Assembly (NCBI GenBank): GCA_017415805.1
Contig: JAFQEC010000018.1
Coordinates: forward strand, 1-64,000
Direction: 5' to 3'
DNA length: 64,000 nt
Origin: Clostridia bacterium
Lineage (GTDB): Bacteria > Bacillota > Clostridia > Oscillospirales > CAG-272
Position 1 is the stretch's first letter; every line of letters starts with the position of its first letter. Shown here in pieces: positions 55,053 through 57,794 of the stretch. Under the pieces are notes generated by a model. The model was not told the DNA's origin, searched no databases, and worked only from the letters and a program-made list of their open reading frames with translations. The position numbers and the translations under genes were made by a program.

Positions 55053-55081
55053 TTGACAGCGCACACATCTTGTGCTACAAT
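55053..55081 (+). promoter_or_regulatory. sigma-A promoter for the fur-permease operon
   Basis: TTGACA (55053-55058), 17 nt, TACAAT (55076-55081), with TGTGC before the -10. Confidence 0.9.
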
Positions 55082-55082
55082 A

Positions 55083-55103
55083 TGAAAACGATTCCCATTT
55101 TCA
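55083..55103 (+). promoter_or_regulatory. Fur-family operator immediately after the -10 box
   Basis: TGAAAA-N9-TTTTCA (55083-55103) forms a partial palindrome that fits the degenerate hexamer array of Fur boxes. It covers the expected transcription start, suggesting autorepression by the downstream Fur-family protein. Confidence 0.6.
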
Positions 55104-55113
55104 AGGAGAGCTT

Positions 55114-55533
55114 ATGCAAAAAAAGCACTATCAAACCGCGGCACGCAGTGCCCTTTTGGCGTATCTTGCCACAAGCGGCGAGCATCCGCAAAGCGCCGAG
55201 GAGATCCGCACGGGGCTGGCCGCCGGCGGACACACCGTGGGTCAGAGCACGGTCTATCGCCTGCTCGCCGATCTGTGCGCGCGCGGCGCGGTCAAAAAAT
55301 ATCATGCAGGCAAAGAGGGTGAGGGCTTCGTCTATGCGTTCGTGGGCGCACATCAGCACTGCGAGCGACACCTGCACCTGCAATGCGTGCGCTGCGGTGC
55401 GGTGCGGCACCTCGAATGTGATTACAACACCCACCTCTCGGAGCATCTGCGCGCCGAGCACGGCTTTTTGGTGGACTGCGGCCGTTCGGTGCTCTTGGGA
55501 CTGTGCGCGAGCTGCACGGAGGTGAAGGCATGA
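55114..55533 (+). CDS. Fur-family metal-responsive regulator
   Basis: 139 residues: winged helix (AEEIRTGLAAGGHTVGQSTVYRLLADLCARGAVKKY), then the metal-binding half with the HQHCERHLHLQCVRCG cluster of His and Cys and a second CASC near the C-terminus, giving the structural four-Cys zinc site. Whether it senses Fe, Zn, Mn or peroxide cannot be told from the motifs. ATG 55114 has AAGGAGAG upstream. The stop overlaps the permease start (ATGA), so it most likely regulates that permease. Confidence 0.92.
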   Translation: MQKKHYQTAARSALLAYLATSGEHPQSAEEIRTGLAAGGHTVGQSTVYRLLADLCARGAVKKYHAGKEGEGFVYAFVGAHQHCERHLHLQCVRCGAVRHLECDYNTHLSEHLRAEHGFLVDCGRSVLLGLCASCTEVKA

Positions 55534-56399
55534 TCAACGGCGCTCATATTCTGCACATCGTATGGCACGCCCTGCTCGATTCGATCAAGCTGCTCCCCTT
55601 CCTGTTCCTTACCTATTTGCTCATGGAGCTCCTGGAGCACCGCGCGGGCGAGCGCGTGCGCGCCACGGTCGCGCGTGCAGGGCGCGCAGGGCCGCTGATC
55701 GGTGCGGGGCTGGGCCTCTTTCCCCAGTGCGGCTTTTCAGCCGCCATCGCGGGGCTTTACGCAGGGCGCGTGGTCACGCTCGGCACAGTCGTGGCGGTCT
55801 TTCTCTCGACCTCGGACGAGCTGATCCCCGTGGTGCTTGGCAGCGGCGTGCCGCTGTCGGCTCTTTTGAAGCTTCTTGCGCTCAAGCTCGGCATCTCCCT
55901 GCTCGCGGGCTTTGCAATCGACCTTGCTCTGCGCCGCCGCGTGGAGCTGCACGTGGGTGAGCTTTGCGACGATGAGCATTGCCACTGCGAGCGCGGCATC
56001 TGGCGCTCGGCGCTGCACCATACGCTCCATATCTTCGTTTTCATTTTGCTCATCAATCTCGTGCTCGGCGCGGCGCTGGAGCTCATCGGCGAGGCGCGCA
56101 TCGGTGCGTTTCTCGCGGCGGTGCCTGTGCTTGGCATCGCGCTCTCGGCGCTGGTGGGACTGATCCCCAACTGTGCCGCCTCGGTCGCCATCGTCACGCT
56201 CTGGGTCGAGGGGATCATCCCCGCAGGCGCCATGCTCGCAGGGTCTCTCACGGGTGCGGGTGCGGGGCTGCTCGTGCTCCTGCGCACCAACCGCCCACGG
56301 CGCGAGAACCTGCTCGCCGTCGGCATCCTGCTTGGCGTCGGCATCCTTTGCGGCTGCCTGCTTGACCTCACGGGGCTTGCGACCGCGATGGGGCTGTGA
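55530..56399 (+). CDS. ArsP_2/10-TM putative metal permease
   Basis: 289 residues with about eight to ten membrane segments. PF11449-like features: LGLFPQCGFSAAIAGLYAGRVVTLGT (about 69-94), STSDELIPVVLG, and LIPNCAASVAIVTLWVEGIIPAGAM in the second half. An internal loop has a metal-ligand cluster ELCDDEHCHCERG (about 146-158). Annotated relatives are putative manganese or heavy-metal exporters. Coupled to the Fur-family gene; metal specificity unknown. Confidence 0.85.
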   Translation: MINGAHILHIVWHALLDSIKLLPFLFLTYLLMELLEHRAGERVRATVARAGRAGPLIGAGLGLFPQCGFSAAIAGLYAGRVVTLGTVVAVFLSTSDELIPVVLGSGVPLSALLKLLALKLGISLLAGFAIDLALRRRVELHVGELCDDEHCHCERGIWRSALHHTLHIFVFILLINLVLGAALELIGEARIGAFLAAVPVLGIALSALVGLIPNCAASVAIVTLWVEGIIPAGAMLAGSLTGAGAGLLVLLRTNRPRRENLLAVGILLGVGILCGCLLDLTGLATAMGL

Positions 56400-56403
56400 T
56401 CGT

Positions 56404-56910
56404 ATGGAGCAGAATTTGCCGCAGAGAAAGCATCTGCGATGGAAATATTTTGATTATAACGCATCGGGCTTCTATTTCATCACCATTTGCACAAGGGATC
56501 GGCAGATGCTGCTCTCTCGAATTGTAGGGACAGGCGTCCTCGACTGTCCGCATGTGCAATTGACATCATACGGTCAAATAGCGGAAAAACAGCTCAAACA
56601 GCTCGATGACTTCTACAAAAGCATCGCCGTCGAAAAATACGTGCTCATGCCCAACCACATTCATCTGATGTTGCGTGTGTCCGCTGGCGGACAGTCGAGG
56701 ACGCCTGTCCCTACGGGTGCAAATTCCACGGTTTCGCGCTTCGTTTCTACATTCAAGCGTTTCTGCAACAAGGAATACGGCCTAAACATTTGGCAAGCGC
56801 GCTTTCACGATCATGTGATACGAAACCAAACAGATTACGAGGAGCACCTGCGTTACATCTGCGAAAATCCCGCACGGTGGCGCGACGACGAGCTCTATTT
56901 TAAGAATTAA
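56404..56910 (+). CDS. REP-associated tyrosine transposase (RAYT/Y1_Tnp), with an internal inverted repeat
   Basis: 168 residues. HUH motif in YVLMPNHIHLML (about 79-90) and the catalytic Tyr in QTDYEEHLRYICENP (about 140-154), with NIWQARFHDHVIR before it: the Y1 transposase fold that nicks palindromic REP sequences. It starts 4 nt after the permease stop with no strong RBS, as if inserted at the operon's end or read through. The coding sequence contains a perfect 28-nt inverted repeat (56524-56551 and 56687-56714) encoding GTGVLDCP and GGQSRTPVPT. A terminator follows. Confidence 0.92.
   Translation: MEQNLPQRKHLRWKYFDYNASGFYFITICTRDRQMLLSRIVGTGVLDCPHVQLTSYGQIAEKQLKQLDDFYKSIAVEKYVLMPNHIHLMLRVSAGGQSRTPVPTGANSTVSRFVSTFKRFCNKEYGLNIWQARFHDHVIRNQTDYEEHLRYICENPARWRDDELYFKN
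56524..56714. repeat. 28-nt perfect inverted repeat inside the RAYT gene
   Basis: Left copy 56524-56551 begins GTAGGGACAGGCGTCC and ends CGACTGTCCGC; the right copy 56687-56714 is its exact reverse complement. Each copy is itself partly palindromic (GGACAG with CTGTCC), and the right copy extends to TGTCCGC-TG-GCGGACA. The intervening 135 nt encode the HUH motif. Confidence 0.9.
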
Positions 56911-56947
56911 AAAAGACCGACAGGCTATGTCTGTCGGTCTTTTTTTG
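56910..56947 (+). terminator. terminator after the RAYT gene
   Basis: A 14-bp stem AAAAAGACCGACAG with complement, 7-nt loop, and T8 run, starting at the stop codon. Confidence 0.93.
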
Positions 56948-56986
56948 CAAATAAAAAGCCAACTGTCGGATGACTGCAGTTGACTT

Positions 56987-57229
56987 TTATTGAATTTCTT
57001 GCTCGATATCGTCAAAGATCGGGCTGTCAAAGAAGGCGCGCAGGGTGATCTCCAGGCCATCGCAGAGCTTTTTGACAGAGACCACACCCGGATTTTGGCT
57101 TTTCTCGTTGAGCATGCTGTAAACCGTGGAAGGAGAAACGCCCGAAAGATTGGCCAGCGCATTGGTGGCAATGTTTCTTTCGTTACAAAGCTCCACAATT
57201 CTACGTGCAACCGCTTCTTTTGTGTTCAT
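56987..57229 (-). CDS. XRE-family helix-turn-helix regulator (SLOG-linked)
   Basis: 80 residues, one HTH_3 domain: AVARRIVELCNERNIATNALANLSGVSPSTVYSMLNEKSQNPGVVSVKKLCDGLEITLRAFF. It has a GAAAGGAGAGCAT leader. It is divergent from the SLOG-like gene across a control region with repeated CGATATATCCCACA sites, which it probably binds. AT-richer than neighbours, suggesting acquisition. Confidence 0.85.
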   Translation of the reverse strand: MNTKEAVARRIVELCNERNIATNALANLSGVSPSTVYSMLNEKSQNPGVVSVKKLCDGLEITLRAFFDSPIFDDIEQEIQ

Positions 57230-57356: not shown

Positions 57357-57794
57357 ATGATTTGCACCTTCTTTGGACACAAGGACACTCCGATATACGA
57401 AATACGCTCCGCACTTAAAGCCGTCATCTCGGAGCTGATCGACAAAACGGGAGTTCTCACCTTTTATGTAGGAAATAACGGGAATTTCGATTTTGCGGTA
57501 CAGAGCATATTAAAGGAGCTCGCTTCGGAAAAGGAAAACATAAAATATTCTATCGTACTTTCCTTCATTGGTGAGCACGCGCTCAGCGGAGATCAGGATG
57601 TAACCGTCTTTCCGGAGGGGCTGGAAAAGACTCCTCCCAGATTTGCCATAAGCAAACGAAACGAGTGGCTGATTCAAAATTCTGACCTTGTCATTGCTTA
57701 TACCAAATACTCGTTTTCAAATTCCTGCAAATGGGTTGAAAAAGCAAAAAAGCGTGGATTGACCGTAATCAATCTGGCAATGCAACAACCATAA
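57357..57794 (+). CDS. SLOG/DUF1273-like nucleotide-binding-fold protein
   Basis: 145 residues beginning MICTFFGHKDTPIYE; a Rossmann-like alternation follows with TFYVGNNGNFDFAVQSIL (Gly-rich loop, about 37-54) and SDLVIAYTKYSFSNSCKWVEKAKKRG. It resembles DUF1273/YspA and other SLOG proteins that bind nucleotides or nucleotide signals. Start ATG 57357 has AAAAAGGAGAAAGC upstream. Paired with a divergent XRE regulator. AT-rich. Role unknown; SLOG sensors can belong to stress or defence modules, but no effector is adjacent. Confidence 0.75.
   Translation: MICTFFGHKDTPIYEIRSALKAVISELIDKTGVLTFYVGNNGNFDFAVQSILKELASEKENIKYSIVLSFIGEHALSGDQDVTVFPEGLEKTPPRFAISKRNEWLIQNSDLVIAYTKYSFSNSCKWVEKAKKRGLTVINLAMQQP

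Follow-up and report, generated by a model that had tools for sequence, protein, structure and literature searches.

The RAYT gene at 56404-56910 of the window (the whole 64-kb stretch of DNA that was analysed) contains two inverted copies of one REP within its own reading frame. From the sequences compared here, we consider that these are probably the cognate pair of a REPtron, internalised and kept as a cis substrate. The features of the locus are as follows:

56404-56910, + strand: RAYT (TnpAREP) gene from the ORF list, 168 aa, ATG start at 56404
56524-56551, + strand: REP1, a GTAG-tagged hairpin with a 26-nt core (56524-56549) plus 2 nt
56552-56686, + strand: spacer of 135 nt between REP1 and REP2, the HUH-motif segment, with the NHIH codons at 56653-56664
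56687-56714, - strand: REP2, the opposite-strand copy of REP1, core 56689-56714
56909-56945, + strand: probable intrinsic terminator of the RAYT gene, a 15-bp inverted repeat with a T-run just past the stop

The internal REPs and their host gene

As the preliminary description had it, the segments 56524-56551 and 56687-56714 are perfect 28-nt reverse complements and both lie within the RAYT ORF. Each is a hairpin in its own right, consisting of GTAG, GGACAG.G.CG, the loop TCCT and CG.A.CTGTCC with one G.A mismatch; the arms, earlier called REP-like, are complete GTAG-tagged REP hairpins. The earlier reading that both stay in frame around the HUH codons also holds, REP1 coding for residues 41-49 (VGTGVLDCP) and REP2 for residues 96-104, with the NHIH codons (residues 84-87) between them. 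In the predicted structure the REP1 peptide occupies a beta-hairpin turn (model residues 42-49) and the REP2 peptide a low-confidence loop (pLDDT <50) that connects the HUH strand to the following helix. A chance repeat is ruled out by an arithmetic estimate, which puts a perfect 28-nt inverted repeat in ~500 nt at the order of 1e-12, together with dinucleotide shuffles of the window, in which no such repeat arose. A repeat imposed by a conserved peptide is likewise ruled out, since the arms code for unrelated, variable peptides and their DNA is conserved far above the rest of the gene.

The gene product carries the motifs NHIH (the HUH motif, residues 84-87), WQ (130-131) and YICENP, and Tyr151 within the last is presumed to be the catalytic tyrosine. 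Against NCBIfam NF047646 (REP_Tyr_transpos) it scores 69.9 bits with a cut-off of 80, and is thus related to this family but unassigned by the model; its score for Pfam Y1_Tnp falls just under the cut-off, with 30 of 36 close relatives matching Y1_Tnp. The nearest solved structure by sequence is 4er8, the E. coli TnpAREP (E 3.7e-7). This is also the best match of the predicted fold (pLDDT 80.3; Z 12.6, rmsd 2.9 over 128 residues), and as modelled the protein has the fold of a TnpAREP. Residues H85, H87, Y151, N155 and P156, as well as Q131, are invariant among 36 homologues. The HuH signature of TnpAREP subclass 2.4 (NH[IFV]H plus WQ) is present as NHIH with W130 and Q131, and the class 2 tyrosine signature Y---NP as YICENP, in which E replaces the first N of the consensus YIxNNP. 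The window RAYT also shares with this subclass the presence of in-frame REPs within the gene and of GTAG REPs of the same family elsewhere in the genome. A genome search for the 28-nt sequence, as proposed earlier, found copies outside the RAYT gene: an exact one (C26:35092), one with 1 mismatch (C37:2070), one with 2 mismatches (C27:4690) and further diverged copies. The exact and 1-mismatch copies are covered by no ORF of at least 80 aa.

A scan of the 64-kb window for GTAG hairpins found no REP besides REP1 and REP2. The inverted REPs on both flanks that mark a classical REPtron are thus absent within the window. The next 16 kb of the contig contains exactly two GTAG hairpins, both inside the second RAYT of this genome (G000), L007 (C12:76725-77219; L008 12725-13219), which is on the same contig as the window RAYT. 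The internal REPs of L007 occupy the same two sites and have different sequences. They form a pair of a different type, whose arms share one motif class yet differ from each other (GGGAGG versus GGGCGG stems).

It is very improbable that the REP-encoded peptides are what matters, that is, that their loops help the enzyme to recognise the same REP and the target so writes part of its own reader. Both segments do belong to loops of the catalytic core, and one of them immediately precedes the helix that contacts the REP hairpin in E. coli TnpAREP (PMC8266576). However, the site-2 loop is modelled at a pLDDT below 50, the core is kept in REP-less relatives, and the main text of Quentin 2018 (PMC6006769) models the variable region away from the DNA.

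As regards the neighbourhood (55072-57229 of the window), the RAYT start codon lies 4 nt past the stop of a putative heavy-metal exporter gene (ArsP_2), which itself overlaps a Fur-family gene, and RAYT may be the last gene of an ArsP_2/Fur-family operon. A small Cro/C1-type regulator gene lies directly downstream of RAYT on the opposite strand. Next to the HTH regulator, at 57357-57794, is a small protein that matches the YpsA SLOG family weakly (under the cut-off).

Fixed sites in relatives and REPs on the flanks

For comparison, 110 homologues were drawn from related genomes and from GTDB species. The genome_contigs set was found partly through the REP-encoded peptide VLDCPHVQ, and therefore the family and order sets provide the unbiased test; some genes are common to several sets, and duplicates were removed for the count of internal against flanking REPs. 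A REP is present at both sites, in inverted orientation, in 100 of the 110 homologues, and the arrangement recurs in almost every relative from the order. Site-1 REPs are in frame 0 in every case (110/110) and site-2 REPs share one frame in 103/105. Alignment and predicted structure place site 1 in the turn past the first core strand and site 2 in the loop past the HUH strand. Outgroups without REPs (Leptolinea, Spirosoma, E. coli rayT and L248) are shorter at both sites, and therefore the REPs are insertions; they are ancestral in the clade of the window RAYT. Plasmids and phages hold only distant relatives, which serve as empty-site outgroups, and in viral contigs no relatives of the window RAYT were found.

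The nucleotide alignment of homologues that had been suggested earlier does reveal a conserved repeat, although it is conserved as a matched pair whose sequence varies from gene to gene and not as a fixed sequence. According to the preliminary description, a lack of copies elsewhere in the genome together with a lack of conservation in homologues would have spoken against a REP origin; both genomic copies and conservation were found.

Within 400 nt of the gene, REPs occur on both sides in 2 of 146 intact pair-bearing genes compared with 9 of 21 genes lacking the pair (Fisher 6e-8, uncorrected for phylogeny; for the order alone not significant at P = 0.15, with only 8 genes without the pair). 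Of 19 genes outside the order, one has the internal pair; a flanking REP accompanies 12 of the 13 intact genes that lack it. Four genes (L288, L306, L257 and L291) are nested among pair-bearers on the tree; their internal REPs have been lost or have decayed and REPs are found outside, as dimers on both sides in L288 and L306. L291 also has one in-frame stop. The upstream REPs of L248, whose empty-site gene is intact, fall below the automatic threshold and were found by inspection. Exceptions are L037, L204, L205 and L296, in which a single internal REP is retained and no flanking REP was detected. L121 and L124 may represent intermediates with one arm. Taken together, the sequence comparisons suggest that the internal pair takes the place of the REPs that usually flank the gene, as a matter of near exclusivity and not as a strict rule.

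Matching of the two arms and REPs elsewhere

The two arms of a gene have the same stem type in 94 of 100 genes, compared with a mean of 24.9 and a maximum of 40 when partners were shuffled in 10,000 trials. In the family set, which was collected with a whole-family profile instead of REP peptides, arms match in 48 of 52 genes (shuffles: mean 10.7, maximum 21), and in other families of the order they match in 17 of 19. Variable stem positions agree between arms in 97-99% of cases versus 49-60% expected, and the purine-purine stem mismatch is kept in every case. Agreement at loop position 17 is 0.67 versus 0.64 expected; this position changes near-randomly on the tree and is weak evidence for or against copying from arm to arm.

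On a gene tree computed without the REP codons, stem-type changes number 23 at site 1 and 21 at site 2, whereas the joint label requires only 24. This is indicative of type changes that are mostly paired, and only indicative because branch support is modest, many branches being weakly supported; a comparison of independent pairs on single stem types yielded few supported pairs. The paralogues L053 and L059, from one MAG, are 80% identical outside the REPs, and the several REP positions that differ between them are the same in both arms; a similar pattern is seen in L064 and L072. Genes of the same type that are 60% identical elsewhere have REP DNA that is 97-98% identical, and the REP-coded peptides of the two sites are mutually unrelated and highly variable. 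Thus the internal REP segments appear, by sequence comparison, to be conserved for DNA rather than for peptide, and the clade of the window RAYT is a clear case of such apparent conservation within a coding region.

A clade (L227, L229, L232-L235, L238, L240 and L252) has stably unlike arms, GCGAAC...GTTCGC at site 1 and GCGACC...GGTCGC at site 2. Since this clade keeps two unlike arms, arm identity is not required, and the internal pair can be a fixed heterodimer. Separately, a RAYT of G022 (C59:99207-99417) has a chimeric site-1 REP, its left half of one type and its right half of another (GTAGGGACAGGCGTCCTCGGCGACCC), which is possibly the trace of a partial replacement.

The preliminary description had also proposed that the mRNA folds into a 28-bp stem that hides the HUH codons and limits expression. 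Such a stem is indeed predicted, with the 135-nt spacer as its loop: the fold of the whole ORF has all 28 inter-arm pairs at a mean probability of 0.9995, and the predicted inter-arm duplex has -63 kcal/mol compared with about -22 for two local hairpins. Nevertheless regulation of this kind, in which slowed translation or cutting by RNase III would limit the transposase, is an improbable main reason for the repeat. Intact relatives exist without the stem (L288, L306 and L257), the inter-arm spacer varies among relatives and some genes have tandem copies. Mismatches between arms have no bias towards G-U wobble (14 vs 12). Moreover, each arm keeps its own hairpin and purine mismatch, both superfluous for an inter-arm stem, and the genomic dimers would be left unexplained.

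The same genomes also harbour scattered REPs of the internal types, and these frequently form plus/minus dimers resembling the internal pair. Two REP families were compared across 146 family genomes with and without RAYT; they occur in 32/71 versus 3/75 and in 18/71 versus 2/75 genomes, respectively (Fisher P 3e-9 and 6e-5, uncorrected for kinship). The REP of RAYT L226 is found in 1 of the 146 genomes, its own (G409), with two copies in the gene and three elsewhere, two of which form a dimer.

Template switching readily occurs between inverted repeats a short distance apart, and the arms could in principle be passive passengers, two old in-frame insertions without cis function whose identity is maintained by such switching or by gene conversion. 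The wide variation of the peptides and their position in loops, one of low model confidence, would fit this, as would intact empty-site relatives such as L248 and the tandem extra REPs stacked at the same sites in some genes (three and two in L110). We nonetheless consider it unlikely. It fails to predict either the replacement of flanking REPs or the decay of the internal copies where REPs lie outside, and equally the match between the internal type and the REP families of the genome. Loop position 17, unmatched between arms, also counts against it, weakly, as the position is fast-changing. Passive insertion could explain a part of what is seen, since in-frame REPs occur in other genes. The earlier suggestion that the repeat is ancestral sequence converted to identity survives in part: the insertions are ancestral in the clade and the arms have been kept alike through type changes.

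A pair probably kept in cis and its known counterparts

We return to the internalised cognate pair as the preferred reading. The REP pair, external to the gene in ordinary REPtrons, would have moved into the ORF at two protein loops, both of which would tolerate about nine extra residues. It would then have been retained because the enzyme needs a REP pair in cis or multiplies through one. Single-stranded REP hairpins formed in its own gene would be the nearest substrate of the RAYT, and neither recombination nor transfer could part a template so placed from the enzyme; the function of the flanking REPs would thereby pass to the internal pair. The substrates of the E. coli TnpAREP are GTAG hairpins in single-stranded DNA; the enzyme binds them, requires the mismatch in their stem and cuts adjacent to the REP (PMC8266576). 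From this and the anatomy of the locus, we infer that the window RAYT binds and cuts the REPs within its own gene, and that the two arms are kept alike by selection for a cis substrate. The earlier idea that the gene may carry its own substrate gains support in that the arms are REPs with further copies in the genome, and the pair may be called an apparent substrate. For the clade as a whole, we give even weight to a stronger form, in which the REPtron has been turned inside out: an obligatory cis pair sits in two coding loops, enzyme and substrate are one unit, and a switch of REP family replaces both copies together. Against the cis-substrate reading stand the exceptions named above (L037, L204, L205 and L296) and the stably unlike arms of one clade.

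Matched pairs that replace the outside pair suggest that enzyme and target are held in one physical unit and cannot be parted. This touches on how REPs spread and on why RAYTs persist for long without copying themselves. The matched internal pair provides a handle on the REP recognised by a RAYT that can be read from the gene alone, and offers a sequence rule for assigning REP families to RAYTs in genomes. Similarly, natural type switches, and decay where REPs lie outside, give a handle on the need for a REP pair in cis.

RAYT group 4 was reportedly defined by Bertels in 2017. The group corresponds to TnpAREP subclass 2.4, which the window RAYT resembles, as far as the main text of PMC6006769 describes it, in its HUH and Y motifs, GTAG REPs and in-frame REPs in the gene. 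Subclass 2.4 has its highest frequency in Cyanobacteria and Bacteroidota. The bare phenomenon of in-frame REPs in subclass 2.4 genes is already known, the main text of Quentin 2018 (PMC6006769) giving such insertions as a unique feature of this subclass. However, the insertions described there lie generally between HuH and Y and occur in addition to flanking REPs, whereas here the flanking pair appears to be replaced. The main text of PMC6006769 makes no mention of two fixed inverted sites, of arms that match or change jointly, or of a replaced flanking pair. In the RAYT/REP texts consulted, this main text among them, we found no description of fixed paired sites, of arms changing together or of an internal pair in place of the flanking one.

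The classical REPtron (Nunvar 2010, PMC2817692) likewise combines one RAYT with an inverted cognate REP pair, RAYT and REP change together and REP abundance tracks RAYT. Here, by contrast, the ORF itself holds the pair, and nearby REPs on both flanks are near-absent (2/146). Intragenic GTAG/CGTC REPs and Rickettsia palindromic elements (Di Nocera 2013, PMC3733652) are also in-frame palindromes tolerated in loops of gene products, but they reside in unrelated genes, whereas the palindromes here form a conserved pair in the RAYT gene itself. REPINs, the inverted REP dimers of Bertels and Rainey (2011), similarly have two REPs with GTAG ends outward, and intergenic copies of the families seen here likewise form plus/minus dimers; the internal pair differs in having a spacer of at least 135 nt, which encodes the enzyme's catalytic core. 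In G018 (93% complete), 78 REPs belonging to two related types are spread over many contigs, frequently paired as inverted dimers, and no RAYT of the window kind was found in this genome, so that these are REPs without a detected cognate enzyme. In G371 there are five plus/minus dimers of internal REP families, the RAYT pair included.
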